Source: an uncultured Oscillospiraceae bacterium
GTDB taxonomy: Bacteria; Bacillota; Clostridia; Oscillospirales; Oscillospiraceae
DNA: 47,275 bases
Assembly (NCBI GenBank): GCA_947631395.1
Contig: CANRLF010000014.1
Coordinates: forward strand, 1 to 47,275
Reading direction: 5' to 3'
Each line of letters starts with the position of its first letter. The stretch's first letter is position 1. Of this stretch, positions 39,727 through 47,275 are shown piece by piece. The notes beneath the pieces are model-generated. The model was not told the DNA's origin and ran no database searches. It saw nothing but the letters and a program-made list of their open reading frames with translations. A program made the translations under genes and the position numbers.

Positions 39727-40751
39727 ACCTTATCCAGGTGCTCTTCGTAGAATTTTTCGTAATTTTTGAGGTTATATTCGATAAGCGCCGGGGTGTCGAG
39801 GCCGTAGGGGCACCGGGAGGCGCAGGCGCGGCAGTGGATACAGTCGGCCATCCTCATGGCCTTTTCGTGAAATTCGTCGGTCATGTACTGCTTCCACGGG
39901 GAGCGCAGAAGGAGCATGTCAAGGCGGGCCATGGTGAAGATCTCGATGTTCGCGGGGCAGGGAAGGCAGTAGCCGCAACCCCGGCAGAAGGACCCGGCCA
40001 GGGCCTTTTTCTCGCGCTCCAGCTCCGCCTGAAGCTCCGGGGTCATGGTGGGCTCGGCGTTCTCGGCCTCCACCCACGCGCGAAGCTGGTCCTCAAACTG
40101 TATGCCCCAGATGGGCACCACGTTGTCGAACTGGTTCATAAAGGCCCGGCAGAGGGTGACGTTGGTCAAAAGCCCGCCGGCGAGGCCCTTCATGGCGATG
40201 AAGCCCATATCGTGGTCGCGGCATTTTTTCACGAGCTCCAGCTCCTGCTCACCGGCGAGGTAGCTGAAGGGGAACTGAAGTGTCTCGAAATTGCCGGACT
40301 CGATGGCCGCGTGGGCCACGGACAGGCGGTGGTTGGTTATGCCGATGTGGCGGATGTAGCCCTTTTTCTTCGCATCTAACGCGGCGGCGTAGGGGCCGTC
40401 GGGGCCATTGGGGTCGGGGAGAGCGGCGGGGTTGTGGAACTGGAAGAGGTCGATGTAGTCGGTTTTCATCCGCTCAAGGCTCAGCTCGATGTGGGCCTTT
40501 ACGGTCTTATAGTCGCTACCGCCGCTTTTTGTGGCGATGATTATATTTTCCCGCACGTCGGAAAGGCCCATGCCGATCTTCTCCTCGCTGTCGGTATAGG
40601 CGTTGGCGGTGTCGAAGAAGTTTATGCCGGACTCATAGGCCATGCGCAAAAGCCTGGCTCCGTCCTCCTTGGAGCGGCGCTGTACGGGGAGCGCCCCGAA
40701 GGCCGTGCGGGTGACCATGAGCTCCGTTTTTCCAAGCCGTATTTTCTTCAT
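39723..40751 (-). CDS. aldo/keto reductase with C-terminal 4Fe-4S ferredoxin domain
   Basis: A 342-residue oxidoreductase. Residues 1-240 form an AKR barrel: RLGKTELMVTRTAFGALP, catalytic Asp and Tyr in FFDTANAYTDSEEKIG, Lys in IIIATKSGG and His in DLFQFHNP. The C-terminal ~90 residues bear Cys clusters CRGCGYCLPCP and CIHCRACASRCPYG, suggesting one or two iron-sulfur clusters. Such AKR-ferredoxin fusions are common in anaerobic Firmicutes and presumably reduce carbonyls with NAD(P)H or ferredoxin electrons; the substrate is not known. It overlaps both recN (upstream, 4 bases) and the phosphatase gene (4 bases), so it lies at the distal end of the dxs-recN operon. Confidence 0.9.
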   Translation of the reverse strand: MKKIRLGKTELMVTRTAFGALPVQRRSKEDGARLLRMAYESGINFFDTANAYTDSEEKIGMGLSDVRENIIIATKSGGSDYKTVKAHIELSLERMKTDYIDLFQFHNPAALPDPNGPDGPYAAALDAKKKGYIRHIGITNHRLSVAHAAIESGNFETLQFPFSYLAGEQELELVKKCRDHDMGFIAMKGLAGGLLTNVTLCRAFMNQFDNVVPIWGIQFEDQLRAWVEAENAEPTMTPELQAELEREKKALAGSFCRGCGYCLPCPANIEIFTMARLDMLLLRSPWKQYMTDEFHEKAMRMADCIHCRACASRCPYGLDTPALIEYNLKNYEKFYEEHLDKV

Positions 40752-42424
40752 TTAAGGCCCTCCTTATATTTTTTCGCGGCGTCAAGCTGCTCCGCGGCGG
40801 ACATGAGAGTTATCTCCGTCACGTTGTCCCCGCCGGTGAGGCGGGCGATCTCGCGACGGCGGCCTGAGATGTCGAGAGGCGTCACGCTGGTGTATGTCCG
40901 GCCGGACTGGACACGCTTTTCAATCGAGAACTGCGTGTCCGCCATGGCGGCGATCTGGGGGAGGTGGGTGACGCATATGACCTGCTTATTTTTGCCGATG
41001 GCCGCCAGCTTCTCCGCCACGCGCTGGGCGGCGACGCCGGAGACGCCGGTGTCTATCTCGTCAAAGACCATGGCTCCCACGGTGTCGGCCCGGGACAGCA
41101 CGGTCTTCATTGCCAGCATGATCCGGGAAAGCTCGCCGCCGGAGGCAACCTTCACGATGCGCCCCGGGGCCTCGCCGGTGTTGGCGGCCATGAGGAAGCG
41201 GACCTCGTCCGCGCCGTCGGGGCCGAGCTCCCGGGGCGAAAGCTCCACGGTGAAAGCGGCTCCCGGCATGGAGAGGTCACGGAGCTCACGCTCAATGGCA
41301 TCAGAGAGGGCCTTCGCCGCCGTCTGGCGTTTTTTGGTCAGCGCCGCGGCCAGGGTTTTTGCCCGGGCCTCGGCGGAGGCGAGCTTTGCCTCCAGCTTTT
41401 TTATCCGTTCGTCGGAAAACTCCATCTCGTCAAGCTCACGCCTGGCCTGCTCCAGGGTCTCAATGGCGGCCTCCTCACTGCCGCCGTATTTGCGCGTGAC
41501 GCGTTTTAAAACGTCGAGGCGGCTGTCAAGCTCGTCCAGCTCCTCGGGGGAGAACTCCAGCCTCTCGCGGATGTCCCGGAGCTCCTCCGCCGCGTCCTCG
41601 GCGGCGTATTTAAGGTCGGTGAGCTTCCGGGAGAGGCCCTCAAGCTCCTCGCTCCAGCGAAGGGCGTAGGCGATGCTCCCGGCGGCGGACTCGATGAGGG
41701 ACACGGCCCCGTCGCTTCGCTCCGAGCCGTACATGCAGGCCGAGGCGTCCCGGACGGCGTCGGAGAGCTTCCCGGCGCTTCTGAGAAATTCCCGGCGCTT
41801 TTGCTTCTCGTCATACTCGCCGGGCCTTAAATTCGCCCGCTCGAGCTCCTTTATCTGGTAATTCAGCATATCCACCCGGCGCTCGCGCTCGCCCTCGTCC
41901 ATGGTGAGGGAGTCGAGCTCCTCCCGGAGGGCACGGAGCTCGGAATAGGCGATTTTATATTCGTCGAGCTCCGCGCCGACGCCGCCAAAGCCGTCGAGAT
42001 AAGCGAGATGCCAACGCTCGTTCGTGAGGCGCTGGCCGTCGCCCTGGCCGTGTATGTCGATGAGCCGCAGGCCCAGCTCCCGGAGCTGTACGGCGGACAC
42101 GGGGGTACCGTTTACACGGCAGGAGCTCTTGCCGTCGTCGGAGATGCGCCGGGTGAGCACGAGCTCGTCCTCAAACTCCACGCCGTTTTCCTCGCACCAG
42201 TCTTTGGCGTCCACGCCGGTGAAGGTGGCGGTGACAAGGGCGGATCTTTCGCCGGTGCGGACGAGCTCGCGGCTGGTCCGCCAGCCAAGGGACGCCTCTA
42301 AGGAGTCGATGACTATGGATTTGCCCGCGCCGGTCTCGCCGGTCAGGACGTTGAGCCCGTCGTTGAACTCGATGTCCGCCCGGTCGATGACGGCGATATT
42401 TTCGATGTGAAGGAGCGAAAGCAT
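40748..42424 (-). CDS. recN: DNA repair protein RecN
   Basis: A 558-residue SMC-like ATPase for double-strand-break repair. ATG 42424 follows GGAGGTGAT by about 5 bases; longer in-frame starts overlap the upstream hairpin repeat. Walker A GETGAGKS (29-36), Q-loop region IDIHGQGDGQ, a central coiled coil (about 150-370), ABC signature ASGGELSR (about 426-433) and Walker B MVFDEIDTGVSG (about 450) are all intact. Length matches the family. It follows argR as in many clostridia; the hairpin repeat at 42478 lies between them and may reduce read-through. Confidence 0.96.
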   Translation of the reverse strand: MLSLLHIENIAVIDRADIEFNDGLNVLTGETGAGKSIVIDSLEASLGWRTSRELVRTGERSALVTATFTGVDAKDWCEENGVEFEDELVLTRRISDDGKSSCRVNGTPVSAVQLRELGLRLIDIHGQGDGQRLTNERWHLAYLDGFGGVGAELDEYKIAYSELRALREELDSLTMDEGERERRVDMLNYQIKELERANLRPGEYDEKQKRREFLRSAGKLSDAVRDASACMYGSERSDGAVSLIESAAGSIAYALRWSEELEGLSRKLTDLKYAAEDAAEELRDIRERLEFSPEELDELDSRLDVLKRVTRKYGGSEEAAIETLEQARRELDEMEFSDERIKKLEAKLASAEARAKTLAAALTKKRQTAAKALSDAIERELRDLSMPGAAFTVELSPRELGPDGADEVRFLMAANTGEAPGRIVKVASGGELSRIMLAMKTVLSRADTVGAMVFDEIDTGVSGVAAQRVAEKLAAIGKNKQVICVTHLPQIAAMADTQFSIEKRVQSGRTYTSVTPLDISGRRREIARLTGGDNVTEITLMSAAEQLDAAKKYKEGLK

Positions 42425-42477
42425 TAAATCACCTCCGGTTTTACGACTGGATCGCCATCCCTCCGGGAGGGGGAGAC

Positions 42478-42510
42478 TGTCGAAAAAGCCCTGACGGGCT
42501 TTTTCCGACA
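42478..42510 (-). repeat. dispersed TGTCGAAAAAG hairpin repeat, copy 2
   Basis: TGTCGAAAAAGCCC, loop TGAC, then GGGCTTTTTC and CGACA with one extra C. It matches 24468-24499 in both arms and apex. It lies inside an operon between argR and recN, so here it may act as an attenuator or processing site. Confidence 0.75.
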
Positions 42511-42527
42511 AGGGGAACGGGCGAATC

Positions 42528-42974
42528 TTATAATATTTTTCTCATCCTCCGGCATATCTCCTCCGCCGCGTCGTCGTCGCGCATGGCGAGGAAGGCGGTG
42601 TCGTCGCCGGCGATAGTGCCAACTAAGGAGCGGAGGGACATTTTATCTATGGCGGCGCAGGCCGCGGGGGCAAGGCCAGGGAGAGTTTTTATCACGACTA
42701 TGTTCTGGGCCCGGTCGATGCTGGTGACGCACTCACGGAAGATGGTGCGAAGGCGCTCCTCCACGTCCACGACTTTCGTCCGGGGCATGACATAGCGGTA
42801 GCGGCCCTGGGGGGTGCGCTCGCGCTCCAGGCCGAGGGCGCGTATGTCCCTTGACACGGTGGCCTGGGCGGCGGTGAAGCCCTCCCGTGAAAGGGCGCGG
42901 ACCAGCTCGGCCTGGGTGCCGATGATATTTTTGGAGATAAGCTCGACTATCTTCTCCTGTCGGGTGGTGCTCAT
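42528..42974 (-). CDS. argR: arginine repressor ArgR
   Basis: A 148-residue hexameric regulator of arginine metabolism. The N-terminal winged helix (1-70) reads RQEKIVELISKNIIGTQAELVRAL then AAQATVSRDIRALGLER, and the C-terminal arginine-binding oligomerisation domain has SLVGTIAGDDTAFLAMRDD. Length is typical. It overlaps nadK by 4 bases. The link with recN and nadK is a conserved clostridial gene order, not evidence for a functional tie. Confidence 0.95.
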   Translation of the reverse strand: MSTTRQEKIVELISKNIIGTQAELVRALSREGFTAAQATVSRDIRALGLERERTPQGRYRYVMPRTKVVDVEERLRTIFRECVTSIDRAQNIVVIKTLPGLAPAACAAIDKMSLRSLVGTIAGDDTAFLAMRDDDAAEEICRRMRKIL

Positions 42975-43789
42975 GGACGATCCCCCAATTTACTGTTGAC
43001 CTTCTCATAAAAGCTTCTGCCGGTTATCCTCACAAGGCCGGTGACCAGGGAGGATCTGCGTATTTCAACTCTGTCGGAGTCGGACAGGGCTACGCTCTCG
43101 CCGCCGTCCACGGACAAATAGGCCGTTTTGCCGGACAGGGGGCGGAGCTCAAGGGTGACGGCGCGCTCCGGCGCAAGGACGTAGCTCCTGGCGGAGAGGA
43201 TGTGGGGACATACGGGCGTGACTATAAGGCTCTGGGCCGTGGGCTCCACTATGGGGCCGCCGGCGGAGAGGGAATAGGCGGTGGAGCCGGTGGGGGTGGA
43301 GACGATGACGCCGTCGCCGTCAAAGCTCATAATCCTGCGGCCGTCGCCGTAGACGTTGATGCCGATTACGCGGGACATGCCGCGGACAACGGCCTCGTTG
43401 AGGGCGAAATCGCGGAGGATCGGGCGGCCGTCGCGAAATACGGTGACATCGGCCATCATGCGGTTTTCAACGGTGTATTTGCCCTGAAAGGCTTGGGCCA
43501 CAAGGCTTGTCTCGCCGGGCTCGAGCTCGGCCATGAAGCCTTTGTGGCCGAGATTAAGGCCGAGGATGGGGGTGGGGAGGGAGCAGAGGGCGCGGGCGGC
43601 GCGGAGAATGGCGCCGTCGCCGCCGAAGGTGACGGCCATATCGGCACCGGTCTCAAGGGCTCCGGAATGGCAGGATATGTCAATCACGCCGTAAGAGACG
43701 CCGCATTGGTCGGCTATTTTTTTCACACTTTCAAGGCAGGAAAGTCCAATATCCCGGGTGGGATTTGCGAAAAGCAGTACTTTTTCCAT
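42971..43789 (-). CDS. nadK: NAD kinase
   Basis: A 272-residue cytoplasmic enzyme making NADP from NAD. The ATP/NAD site GGDG is at 56-59 (VTFGGDGAILRAAR), followed by GLNLGHKGFMAEL (usual family motif GxxGFL), the ALNEAVV segment, and the glycine-rich GDGVIVSTPTGSTAYSLSAGGPIV (about 155-178). It is placed between tlyA and argR in the leftward operon, overlapping argR by four bases. Confidence 0.95.
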   Translation of the reverse strand: MEKVLLFANPTRDIGLSCLESVKKIADQCGVSYGVIDISCHSGALETGADMAVTFGGDGAILRAARALCSLPTPILGLNLGHKGFMAELEPGETSLVAQAFQGKYTVENRMMADVTVFRDGRPILRDFALNEAVVRGMSRVIGINVYGDGRRIMSFDGDGVIVSTPTGSTAYSLSAGGPIVEPTAQSLIVTPVCPHILSARSYVLAPERAVTLELRPLSGKTAYLSVDGGESVALSDSDRVEIRRSSLVTGLVRITGRSFYEKVNSKLGDRP

Positions 43790-43796
43790 AGGTTCG

Positions 43797-44594
43797 TCAC
43801 CCCCGCAAAAGCTCGTGAGAGTCGCTCACGACCTGGTCGATTTGGGCCTCACACTCACAGGGACAGCTCACGAGATGGCCCAGAAATTCGATGTTTCCCT
43901 CGGGTCCTTTGATGGGAGACCAGGTAATATTTTTTACAAAAAAGCCGGAATTTTCGGAATTTTTGATAAAGTCGAGGAGTACTTTACGGTGTGTCAAGGG
44001 GTCATGTACGACCCCTTTCTTACCTATTTTGTCCCTTCCGGCCTCGAACTGGGGCTTTATCAGGCAAAAGACCTGACCGTCATCGGTAAGGACGGCACGG
44101 ATGGCGGGGAGGATGAGGGAGAGGGAGATGAAGCTCACGTCGACGGTGGCAAGGCAGGGGCGCTCCGGGAACATGTCGGCTGTCAGGTAACGGGCGTTGG
44201 TGCGCTCCATTACGACGACCCGGGGGTCCTGGCGCAGAGACCAGGCAAGCTGGCCGTAGCCCACGTCCACGGCGTAAACGAGCCTCGCGCCCCTTTGGAG
44301 CATCAGATCGGTAAAGCCGCCGGTGGAGGCCCCGCAGTCAAGGCAGACGAGGTCCTTTGGGTCGCCGCCGAAGAAGTCAAGGGCCCGCTCGAGCTTCAGG
44401 CCGCCGCGGGACACGTACTTGGGGGCGGAGGCACGGACACGGATGTCCACGTCGTCGGCATAGGCGGCGCCGGGTTTATCGGAACGCTGGCCGTTGACGA
44501 ACACGTCGCCGGCCATTATGACGGCCCGGGCACGCTCCCGGGAGTCACAGAGGCCCCGGGTGACAAGAAGCACGTCAAGCCTTGTTTTTGCCAT
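43797..44594 (-). CDS. tlyA: TlyA-type rRNA 2'-O-methyltransferase (S4 plus FtsJ domains)
   Basis: A 265-residue protein. ATG 44594 is chosen for GGAGG 8 bases upstream and lies inside the end of dxs (20-base overlap). The N-terminal S4 RNA-binding domain (MAKTRLDVLLVTRGLCDSRERARAVIMAGDVFVNG) leads to a linker SRGGLKLERAL and an FtsJ-like methyltransferase domain: CLDCGASTGGFTDLMLQRGA, VYAVDVGYGQL, DVSFISL and LIKPQFEAGRDKIGKKGVVHD. TlyA enzymes methylate ribosomal RNA; the hemolysin label is historical. The gene order dxs-tlyA-nadK is widely conserved in Firmicutes. Confidence 0.94.
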   Translation of the reverse strand: MAKTRLDVLLVTRGLCDSRERARAVIMAGDVFVNGQRSDKPGAAYADDVDIRVRASAPKYVSRGGLKLERALDFFGGDPKDLVCLDCGASTGGFTDLMLQRGARLVYAVDVGYGQLAWSLRQDPRVVVMERTNARYLTADMFPERPCLATVDVSFISLSLILPAIRAVLTDDGQVFCLIKPQFEAGRDKIGKKGVVHDPLTHRKVLLDFIKNSENSGFFVKNITWSPIKGPEGNIEFLGHLVSCPCECEAQIDQVVSDSHELLRG

Positions 44595-46449
44595 TGCCGG
44601 TACCTCCAATGAGCTCAAGTATCGACGCCTCCACGCCGGTGGCGTCTATCCCGCACAGGGCCCGCTGTTCCTCCACGCTGCCGTGGGGGATGAACCTGTC
44701 GCCAAGGTTCAGAAGGACGGCGGATCTTATGGGGACGTTCATACGGGTGAGGCCGGAGATGAGCTGCTGGCCGAGGCACCCCACGGCCACGGACTCCTCC
44801 AGCACGGCTATACGGCCGGTCCTGGCCACGGAGGCGGCCACGGCCTCGAGGTCCAGGGGCTTTACCCGGCCGAGCTTGATGAGGTCCACGGCGACGCCCT
44901 TTTCCGCAAGGCGGTCCTTCACATCCATGGCGGTGTTGACGCTGACGCCGTAGGTCACGAGGGTGACGTCATCCCCGGGGGAGCCCACGCGCTTTACGGG
45001 GGCCACGCCGCCCTCGGTATAGCGGCCCTCGCAACCCTTGGGGTAGCGGACGGCCACGGGGCCGGTCTCGCGGTGGATGGCGAAGCGAAGCATGTCGCGA
45101 AGCTCCGCGAAGCTTGCGGGGGACCAGACGGTCATGTTGGGCACGGAGGTAAGGTAGCTTATGTCCATACTGCCCTGGTGGGTCTCGCCGTCCTCGCCGG
45201 AAAGGCCGGCTCTGTCAACCGCCAGCACGGCGTGCTCACGGCCCAGCGCCAGGTCCTGCAATATCATATCGTAGCTTCGCTGGAGGAAGGTGGAGTACAC
45301 GGCGAATACGGGGATGGCACCCTGGTGGGCGGCGCCGCCGATCATGCTGACGGCGTGGCCCTCGCATATGCCCACGTCAAAAAATCTGTCGGGGAACCGG
45401 CGGGAGAACTCCGTAAGGCCGGTGCCGTGGATCATGGCGGCGGTGACGGCGATGAGGCGCTTGTCCTCGGCGGCCACGGCGCAAAGCTCCTGACCGAACA
45501 CGTCGGAGAAGCTCTCGGGGGAGCGGGGGATGAGGCCGGTGGCGGGGTCGAAGCGCCGGACGCCGTGGAAGGCGTCGGGGTTGACCTCGGCGTACTGACA
45601 GCCCTTGCCCTTTTTCGTTATGACGTGGACGAGGGTTGGGCCGTCGGTGTCCCTGGCGATCCGGAGGGCGGCCTCAAGGGATCTGAGGTTGTGGCCGTCC
45701 ACGGGGCCCAGATAGGAAAAGCCCATGTCCTCGAACATGGAGCAGTGGAAGATGGCTTCCTTTATGGCCTGCTTCACGGCGTGGAGCTTGCTGTAGAGCC
45801 AATTTCCGCCGGGGATACGGCGCATGAGCCGCCGGTAGCCGTTTTTGAAGGCCACATAGCCGTGCTTCAGCCGCTGGCGGGCCAGGTGGCGGGCCATGGC
45901 GCCCACGTTTTTGTCGATGCTCATGCCGTTGTCGTTGAGGATGACTATCATCTTCTCACGGCTGGCGCCGGCGTCACAGAGGCCCTCATAGGCAAGCCCC
46001 CCCGTGAGGGCACCGTCGCCCACCAGGGCTATGACGTCATAGTCCTGGCCCATGAGGGTACGGGCCCTGGCCATGCCCAGCGCCGTGGAGATGGCGGAGG
46101 AGGCGTGGCCGGCCACGAAGGCGTCATGGACGGACTCCTCGGGCTTGGGAAAGCCGGATATGCCGCCAAAGGAGCGAAGGGTGGTAAACTCCCGCCGGCG
46201 GCCGGTAAGTATCTTGTGTATGTAGCTCTGGTGGCCCACGTCGAAAAGGAGCCTGTCGCGGCGGGTGTCGAACACCCGGTGGATGGCGACGGTGAGCTCC
46301 ACAACGCCGAGGTTGGAGCTCAGATGGCCGCCGTTTTCGGCGGTGGTGTCCACCACAAATCGGCGAAGCTCCTCGCACAGCGCGGCAAGCTTCGCCTCGT
46401 CCAATGTCTTTATGTCCTCATAGGAGTTTAAGCTCTCAAGTATACTCAA
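44575..46449 (-). CDS. dxs: 1-deoxy-D-xylulose-5-phosphate synthase
   Basis: A 624-residue thiamine-diphosphate enzyme that makes DXP from pyruvate and glyceraldehyde-3-phosphate, the entry of the MEP isoprenoid pathway. The start appears to be TTG (46449), with GAGGTC about 7-8 bases upstream. Key segments: GGHLSSNLGVVELTVAIH, FDVGHQSYIHKILTGR, the ThDP motif GDGALTGGLAYEGL (about 143) to NDNGMSI, the catalytic-Glu motif VGICEGHAV (usual IAEQHAV; Glu kept, Gln replaced by Gly), and DRAGLSGEDGETHQG. Length is standard. It follows the oapA-like gene by ~20 bases. Confidence 0.95.
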   Translation of the reverse strand: MSILESLNSYEDIKTLDEAKLAALCEELRRFVVDTTAENGGHLSSNLGVVELTVAIHRVFDTRRDRLLFDVGHQSYIHKILTGRRREFTTLRSFGGISGFPKPEESVHDAFVAGHASSAISTALGMARARTLMGQDYDVIALVGDGALTGGLAYEGLCDAGASREKMIVILNDNGMSIDKNVGAMARHLARQRLKHGYVAFKNGYRRLMRRIPGGNWLYSKLHAVKQAIKEAIFHCSMFEDMGFSYLGPVDGHNLRSLEAALRIARDTDGPTLVHVITKKGKGCQYAEVNPDAFHGVRRFDPATGLIPRSPESFSDVFGQELCAVAAEDKRLIAVTAAMIHGTGLTEFSRRFPDRFFDVGICEGHAVSMIGGAAHQGAIPVFAVYSTFLQRSYDMILQDLALGREHAVLAVDRAGLSGEDGETHQGSMDISYLTSVPNMTVWSPASFAELRDMLRFAIHRETGPVAVRYPKGCEGRYTEGGVAPVKRVGSPGDDVTLVTYGVSVNTAMDVKDRLAEKGVAVDLIKLGRVKPLDLEAVAASVARTGRIAVLEESVAVGCLGQQLISGLTRMNVPIRSAVLLNLGDRFIPHGSVEEQRALCGIDATGVEASILELIGGTGNGKNKA

Positions 46450-46467: not shown

Positions 46468-47004
46468 TTATTTTTTCTTTTTCTGGGGGAAAAGGGCCAT
46501 GAGCTTGCCCACCATGAAAACTATCTGGGTGTCGTTGTTTATGGCGACGGATTTGCCGACGGCCTTGCCGCCGATGGTGAGGCCAGAGACCAGGCCCGTG
46601 ACGAGAAGGGAGGTGACGATGCCGTTAAGGCCCATGTCCCTGGTGAGGTTGCCGGCGATGGTGGCGGCGGTGGCGCCGGAGATTATGCCGGATATGTCGC
46701 CCACCACGTCGTTGCAGATGGAGCTCACCCGCTCGGCCCGACGGAGGAGCTTCAGGGCCTCCCTGGCGCCGCGCTCCTTGTGGGCGGCCATGGCGTGAAA
46801 GGGCGTCTCGACGGCGCATGTCACGGCCACGCCGATGATGTCAAAGACGACGCCCAGGGCGATGAAGGCGGCCAGCAGTACGAAGGCCACGATGTAACCG
46901 GCGCCGTCAAGTATCTCGGAGCTTGTAAGGGAGAACACCACCGACATGGTGACGGAGATAAGGATTATTTCGATTATCCACTTGATGTTGGTTTTCTTTT
47001 TCAT
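46468..47004 (-). CDS. oapA: OapA-like membrane protein (OLE RNA-associated, DUF21-like)
   Basis: A 178-residue membrane protein with about four hydrophobic segments (about 8-28, 35-65, 100-118, 128-146), a basic N-terminus and a KKKK C-terminus. The middle has VETPFHAMAAHKERGAREALKLLRRAERVSSICNDVVGDISGIISGATAATI. It resembles short CNNM/DUF21-like proteins found immediately upstream of dxs in clostridia. OapA, the protein partner of OLE RNA, is a DUF21-related membrane protein of this size encoded just after the RNA in operons with isoprenoid, DNA-repair and argR/recN genes; position, size and topology all fit. The identity is from context and recalled family features, so a generic CorB-like annotation is the alternative. 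Confidence 0.75.
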   Translation of the reverse strand: MKKKTNIKWIIEIILISVTMSVVFSLTSSEILDGAGYIVAFVLLAAFIALGVVFDIIGVAVTCAVETPFHAMAAHKERGAREALKLLRRAERVSSICNDVVGDISGIISGATAATIAGNLTRDMGLNGIVTSLLVTGLVSGLTIGGKAVGKSVAINNDTQIVFMVGKLMALFPQKKKK

Positions 47005-47035
47005 AGTCCTCGCAAAATCGTGAAAAAATGGCGGC

Positions 47036-47275
47036 GGCGGGCAGGATAAATCTTGCGGCTTAGGTCGGGTAGGATTTCCCCCGGCGCTGCCCTCCGTTGC
47101 CGTGAGGGTGGTTTCCCATTAAAGCGCCGTCCCGGCAGTCGCCTTGCCGGTCACCCGATCGCCACTGAGACCGCACTGCAATCCCCTGTCCGCCCGATGG
47201 ACAGCCTAGATGTTTTCCATGGCGAAGCGAAACGTCTCTTTAGCCTCTTTTGCAGGAAATATTTCAAGGGGATAT
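47036..47275 (-). ncRNA. ole: probable OLE RNA, 3' part (cut by window edge)
   Basis: About 240 GC-rich bases upstream of the oapA-like gene with no plausible reading frame but dense nested pairing on the minus strand. Examples: CTGTCC/GGACAG (hairpin near 47187-47205), TGCGG with CCGCA and TCGGGT with ACCCGA as long-range helices closing an inner domain, CCGGCA/TGCCGG, GGCGCT/AGCGCC, and CCCTC/GAGGG with an intervening GGGAAACC. OLE RNAs are ~600-nt structured RNAs of anaerobic and extremophilic Firmicutes, encoded directly before oapA in such operons. The 5' part is outside the window and the 3' end is approximate. Another structured leader is possible, but T-box, RNase P, tmRNA, SRP and cobalamin motifs are not seen. 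Confidence 0.65.

Follow-up and report, generated by a model that had tools for sequence, protein, structure and literature searches.

The OLE RNA is one of the largest bacterial RNAs that still lack an assigned biochemical function; it is associated with the membrane, and most of its genetics comes from a single alkaliphile. The best-mapped switch of this RNA is its J4a/5-J6/7 region, with OapC, bS21 and three exclusive folds. The available text of PMC9723947 and PMC12054373 describes the stretch J4a/5-P5-J5/6-P6-J6/7 as adopting three mutually exclusive folds: the first consists of P5 and P6; the second, k-turn 1a, forms from J4a/5 together with J5/6 and some of P6 and is induced by OapC or bS21; and the third, k-turn 1b, is made of J4a/5 with J6/7. 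According to the main text of PMC11332333, OLE has 2,822 hits in Bacillota, OLE and OapA are both known, and variant OLE RNAs already occur in the gut clades RF39 and TANB77. A model of the OLE dimer with OapA has been derived from other systems (PMC12265935, in the text available).

We analysed a DNA stretch of 47,275 nt (the window), which comprises contig C14 in full, one of the 62 contigs of a 2.57-Mb genome. Our overall reading is that it holds an OLE ribonucleoprotein locus of an uncultured Oscillospiraceae bacterium, and we give this explanation as a whole, including the proposed loss of a switch state, a probability of about 0.8. Like the full-length OLE and OapA loci of Halalkalibacterium halodurans and Clostridium acetobutylicum, the locus covers the whole Rfam model and has an adjacent oapA; further common points are its isoprenoid and DNA-repair neighbours, the genes for OapB and bS21 in the genome, and recognizable dimer-contact loop sequences. 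Unlike them, the RNA has a covarying hairpin in J5/6, two extra P6 pairs and no UUAAG strand for k-turn 1a, and no OapC was found in the genome. The P6 element also lacks the CCUCC anti-Shine-Dalgarno mimic, which is mostly missing in short-form relatives too. With OLE variants 1 (TANB77) and 2 (RF39), as described in the text of PMC11332333, the locus shares a probably gut-associated host and the lack of OapC. In those variants, however, P7-P9 or the OapB site is shortened or lost, whereas in the present RNA a helix is added in J5/6 and OapB is encoded in its genome. In itself, the locus is an expected member of the known OLE family.

A cmscan search of the window against 4227 Rfam families returned OLE (RF01071, gathering cut-off 50 bits) as the sole match above the gathering threshold, and another RNA family was rejected on that ground. 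The match is to model positions 351-616 of 616 (E 5.1e-50) on the minus strand. The preliminary description had read the last ~240 bases of the window as non-coding with nested helices and had proposed the 3' part of an OLE RNA; the OLE alignment indeed shows nested long-range and local helices there. The features of the locus are as follows.

47015..47275, minus strand: OLE RNA, 3' part (model 351-616; RF01071, 183.8 bits; 5' part at C40:493-1, minus strand)
46468..47004, minus strand: oapA, 178 residues, DxxxD motif DVVGD (called from motif, CNNM score and co-occurrence with OLE)
44575..46449, minus strand: dxs (TIGR00204, 651.8 bits)
43797..44618, minus strand: tlyA (TIGR00478, 267.3 bits)
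42971..43789, minus strand: nadK, NAD kinase (best match 200.3 bits, no model above its curated cut-off)
42528..42974, minus strand: argR (TIGR01529, 135.4 bits, cut-off 130.45)
40748..42511, minus strand: recN (TIGR00634, 514 bits; match from residue 30, start uncertain)

The 5' end of the OLE match is cut by the window edge, which is the contig end. Beyond it, the covariance-model check found the 5' part (model 1-425, 273.1 bits) on contig C40 of the same genome, at 493-1 on the minus strand. When the first 77 bases of C40 are reverse-complemented, they coincide base for base with the beginning of the window's minus strand (window 47199-47275), an exact overlap probably of the kind left by a k-mer assembler. 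Together the two pieces, scored separately and with model coverage taken as their sum, span the whole model, and the whole RNA is about 677 nt long (493 + 261 - 77). An OLE gene truncated in the genome was rejected, since its other half is present on C40 and overlaps exactly. The family search of this genome listed only the OLE pieces on C40, not the window half, so that its first step can miss cut pieces.

The two contig ends might come from different strains, in which case the joined RNA would be chimeric: assemblies often break at strain variants, and the join rests on 77 bases. Gene order is, however, continuous across the join, as is the OLE model (1-425, then 351-616), and genus mates carry uninterrupted OLE RNAs with the same order of insertions, so that we regard a chimera as very improbable. 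Two of these genus mates have unbroken copies scoring 423.7 and 409.5 bits. In the window's genus, the hairpin at model positions 262-277 (on C40) has ~32-34 extra nt relative to the Rfam model. Open frames overlap the OLE RNA, for example at 47053-47274 on the plus strand; their coding use is unlikely because of the structural match of the RNA.

The preliminary description had also expected oapA and dxs beside the RNA and suggested looking for ispA and xseB upstream. The 178-residue frame adjoins the OLE RNA (model end 47015, oapA start 47004) and dxs is the next gene, followed by tlyA, nadK, argR and recN; ispA and xseB lie directly upstream of OLE on C40 and on the same strand, with xseA and, further up, nusB. 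The neighbours are thus isoprenoid, DNA-repair and related genes. At the stop codon of ispA, just 5' of the OLE start, we found a promoter-like site (TTGAAA-17 nt-TATAAT) with 11 of 12 consensus bases (mean 0.0 in shuffles). Among the 39 family members with a readable OLE 5' end, 20 had at least nine promoter matches before OLE, against 11% of shuffles by our own scoring. The site near the end of ispA points to a separate transcript headed by OLE; read-through from ispA may also occur. Upstream of nusB on C40 (L003:4770-9661), a run of same-strand open frames resembles, by eye, a spoIIIA-type sporulation cluster, which near OLE would fit the published link between OLE and sporulation.

The 178-residue protein, a putative four-helix membrane protein in the preliminary description, matched the Pfam CNNM membrane domain at 23.2 bits (residues 45-172), below the cut-off of 28.4, and had no CBS or CorC_HlyC match. 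It carries DVVGD, which fits the DxxxD motif. According to the text of PMC11332333, DxxxD is distinctive of OapA and absent from CNNM domains, to which OapA as a group is the next-best match. A CNNM match at E 0.01 was seen in 14 of the 15 members of our OapA alignment A1, the 178-residue protein included; both D columns are invariant in alignments A1 and A3. In a family sample of 150 genomes (41 with OLE and 109 without), a search with alignment A1 found OapA in the same 41 genomes as OLE and in none of the 109 others. The gene lies next to OLE in 40 of the 41, and all 40 of these proteins have the DxxGD form. In the remaining genome (G029), OLE and oapA are 2.6 kb apart (C28:20477-23046), with a long frame after OLE (463 codons in the stretch); its OapA is absent from the OapA tree and from the count of 40 motifs. 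No OapA was found in the PDB by profile search, and no NCBIfam model matched above its cut-off.

An ordinary CNNM transporter behind another kind of RNA would account for a weak CNNM match, and the preliminary description had named a grouping with CNNM transporters as the result that would speak against OapA. OLE, however, is the sole Rfam match, it co-occurs strictly with this protein, and the DxxxD motif is one that CNNM domains lack, whereas OapA as a group is their next-best match (text of PMC11332333). On these grounds, the transporter was rejected, and we consider its probability close to nil. The protein behaves as OapA in its motif, its sub-threshold CNNM score and its co-occurrence with OLE in 41 of 41 genomes, and the call is made from motif and co-occurrence. 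We identify the protein as OapA on this basis, and hold the identity of both the RNA and the protein to be virtually certain.

The OapB candidate is a protein of 96 residues that matched PDB 7k9b, 'OLE-associated protein B' (E 8.6e-7), with no match in NCBIfam; its gene lies between genes read as map and infA. A gene for bS21 is present in the genome, and loss of bS21 was therefore rejected. In this genome, rated 97.6% complete, our OapC alignment, which scored OapC at 54 bits or more and cross-matches at 29 or less, found no OapC. The CorC_HlyC domain, present in 11 of 14 control genomes, was likewise missing, and no MpfA-type exporter was found. Exporters of the MpfA/CorC type (CNNM-CBS-CorC_HlyC) have a CNNM-like membrane domain in common with OapA; unlike them, the 178-residue protein has DxxxD and no CBS or CorC_HlyC part that we could find. 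Within the family the two systems are nearly exclusive, the MpfA-type (CorC_HlyC) domain occurring in 9 of 41 genomes with OLE and in 99 of 109 without (p = 5e-16, not corrected for relatedness). An anticorrelation of OLE and MpfA across Bacillota is reported in the text of PMC11332333, and its repetition inside one family fits a shared role in metal homeostasis.

The OLE RNA of the window has a 21-nt insertion in J5/6 (placed by Infernal, on the C40 part) and no UUAAG. We segmented 108 OLE RNAs: those of all 41 OLE-bearing genomes in the family sample plus 67 at named loci, some of which belong to the same genomes (L107/G032, L096/G117, L112/G071, L113/G081 and L152/G036). The named loci were the best 80 of at least 564; OLE was found by script in 70 of them, L123 and L141 were dropped as wrong assignments, and L102, with a hairpin recognized by eye and no segmentation, counts as hairpin type in the named-genome OapC comparison only. 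Type A, with a short J5/6 of 15 nt, comprises 34 of the 108 RNAs (13 of 41 in the family sample) and has UUAAG in all 34. Type B, with a hairpin, comprises the other 74 (28 of 41, the window's included), and UUAAG stands at the J5/6 place in none of them; in G107 and L108 it is found within the hairpin. J5/6 is 28-53 nt long in 70 type B RNAs and 77-195 nt in four (G111, G105, L114 and L173), the latter suggesting an exposed tip that tolerates insertions.

Among 65 unique J5/6 inserts, the chosen stem starts with A-U in 60, and its second pair is A-U in 36, G-C in 27 and C-G in two; GC follows in 64 of 65, a count biased by a bonus that the stem choice gave to stems before GC. A stem of at least five pairs was found in 54 of 61 inserts of up to 55 nt (shuffles: mean 19.6, maximum 29, n=200). 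RNAalifold, applied to 30 of 51 listed type B RNAs, predicted the J5/6 hairpin unprompted, with the outer five pairs of P6 reaching its foot. In the predicted structure 95.0% of cells were paired; the figure was 82.4% for shuffles and 36-43% for slid versions, although the slid control is flattering, as the structure was derived from the same alignment, and related sequences can beat shuffles. For the hairpin itself, 97.5% of cells were paired and six of seven pairs showed two-sided changes. At its foot the two outermost P6 pairs, G-U/C and C-G, are added, and these vary on one side only. The P5-hairpin-P6 region of our RNA folds at -69.8 kcal/mol (z -3.5), and a single nucleotide separates P5 from the hairpin; the P5-P6 region of one short-form relative folds at -45.1 kcal/mol (z -1.1). 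We are highly confident that the J5/6 hairpin is a real conserved element.

On our reading of the alignment, the two outermost P6 pairs of type B RNAs use GC in the position of the k-turn 1a AA of the short form. The GGAG of J6/7 is kept in 108 of 108 OLE RNAs. Of the 34 type A RNAs, 32 have GAU as the J4a/5 bulge; in type B this bulge is UGU (36), GAU (16), GUU (9), UUU (5), UAU (4) or GGU (1), with three unmatched. We rejected the idea that the anti-Shine-Dalgarno mimic was lost along with the change to a hairpin, since CCUCC, searched within 30 nt, is also missing in 30 of 34 short-form RNAs.

Across the class, OLE occurred in 151 of 391 sampled genomes. The J5/6 hairpin was seen in none of 130 OLE RNAs from 51 other families, all of which have the short form; 79 of these were assigned by script, 41 by eye from sequence and 10 by eye from pairwise alignments (among the last, G566 is a truncated copy). 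The remaining 21 genomes with OLE, two of them from the window's own family, stood outside this count. UUAAG was present in 71 of the 79 scripted short-form RNAs, the others having, for example, GUAAGG. The gut-type host raised in the preliminary description agrees with the seven nearest named OapA relatives among the matches listed, which are uncultured Oscillospiraceae MAGs labelled 'Lapin' (75-88% identical). We take this label to mean rabbit, and a gut host is probable.

Within the family sample, OapC was found in 13 of 13 type A but only 8 of 28 type B genomes (Fisher p = 1.6e-5). Among 47 named genomes, whose completeness is not given, the figures were 6 of 9 and 16 of 38 (p = 0.27); Sporobacter termitidis DSM 10068 (L106, 4.2 Mb) is one of type B without an OapC match. 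The association is clear in one sample but not in the other, and may largely reflect shared ancestry. In a tree of OapA sequences (40 family and 10 outgroup rows), J5/6 type changed at least four times, as did OapC in the family rows. The tree gave three to four independent pairs, three of them on well-supported branches, which are too few to test. In the three, wherever OapC differs, the hairpin side is the one without it. The clade to which the window belongs has 17 rows; 16 of these are type B and lack OapC, and the remaining one (G032, tied by match coordinates to Papillibacter cinnamivorans DSM 12816) is type A and has it. Loss of OapC does not follow inevitably from the hairpin, since OapC remains in 8 of 28 and 16 of 38 hairpin genomes. 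Loss has other causes too, because OapC is present in only ~45% of OLE hosts (text of PMC11332333) and in 47 of 109 family genomes without OLE (68 in all less 21). A causal link from hairpin to OapC loss is possible, though on balance we doubt it.

The hairpin might be a neutral peripheral expansion, and the loss of OapC unrelated lineage history, in an otherwise identical OLE ribonucleoprotein. An exposed tip would be expected to expand as in the four longest of the 74 hairpins, OapC is kept in 24 of the 66 hairpin genomes counted over two sets that overlap in part, and independent pairs are few. Set against this, the base and junction of the hairpin are conserved and covary, the k-turn 1a strand is gone in 74 of 74 type B RNAs while all 34 short ones retain UUAAG, and every difference in OapC among the independent pairs goes the same way. 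We regard neutrality as a serious possibility that falls somewhat short of an even chance.

OapC might also have been replaced by YlxQ, another L7Ae-type protein, which would bind k-turn 1b; YlxQ-type proteins bind k-turns. Among PF01248 loci of the family, 29 of the strongest 30 were OapC/YbxF, with either rpsL or the rpoC end as neighbour, and of eight further stretches two were of the OapC/YbxF type and six, beside infB or nusA, were read as YlxQ. The genus mates G020 and G117 have such an L7Ae match beside infB, read as YlxQ, and the k-turn 1b sequences of J4a/5 and J6/7 are kept. In the genome of the window, however, neither kind of L7Ae-family protein was matched at E 0.001, and we consider the replacement unlikely; a diverged YlxQ in this genome is possible.

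The reading that we prefer is loss of a switch state, and its mechanism can be outlined as follows. By analogy with published work in other species, two OLE RNAs would form a dimer that docks with OapA at the membrane; the loop sequences that make the published contacts between the two RNAs can be recognized in our RNA (the helix assignments are our own). OLE with OapA would support tolerance of divalent metals and general stress, and would here stand in for the MpfA exporters that are missing. The J5/6 hairpin, with GC for AA at its 3' foot, would delete the protein-induced k-turn 1a state and reduce the switch to a stable P5-hairpin-P6 stack, k-turn 1b (J4a/5 with J6/7) being the sole remaining alternative. 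Because k-turn 1a would be gone, OapC, its inducer, would have become dispensable and been lost in the sub-lineage of the window; where hairpin types keep OapC, it may use k-turn 1b. Judged from sequence, a functional loss of k-turn 1a has about an even chance. We tentatively propose a third natural OLE architecture, in which k-turn 1a is replaced by a hard-wired P5-hairpin-P6 element and the ribonucleoprotein, freed from OapC, keeps OapA, OapB and the dimer contacts.

The J5/6 hairpin variant is apparently undescribed and lineage-specific. The results text of PMC11332333 shows no J5/6 hairpin, although a drawing of the variant may exist in figures, supplements or subscription papers on OLE; the text of PMC12265935 names common OLE variation only from J6/7 to P8, and the accessible OLE literature text, including that of PMC12286853, does not mention the variant. 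Within the open literature, we found no paper on OLE RNA with Oscillospir or Sporobacter. Gut hosts of OLE are not new in themselves (text of PMC11332333). The added hairpin sits exactly where other OLE RNAs change shape, and a covarying replacement of the switch in 28 of 41 family members and in S. termitidis makes the role of the switch testable by comparing natural RNAs. If the proposed loss is true, these bacteria would provide a natural experiment that separates the role of the k-turn switch from that of the core membrane ribonucleoprotein.
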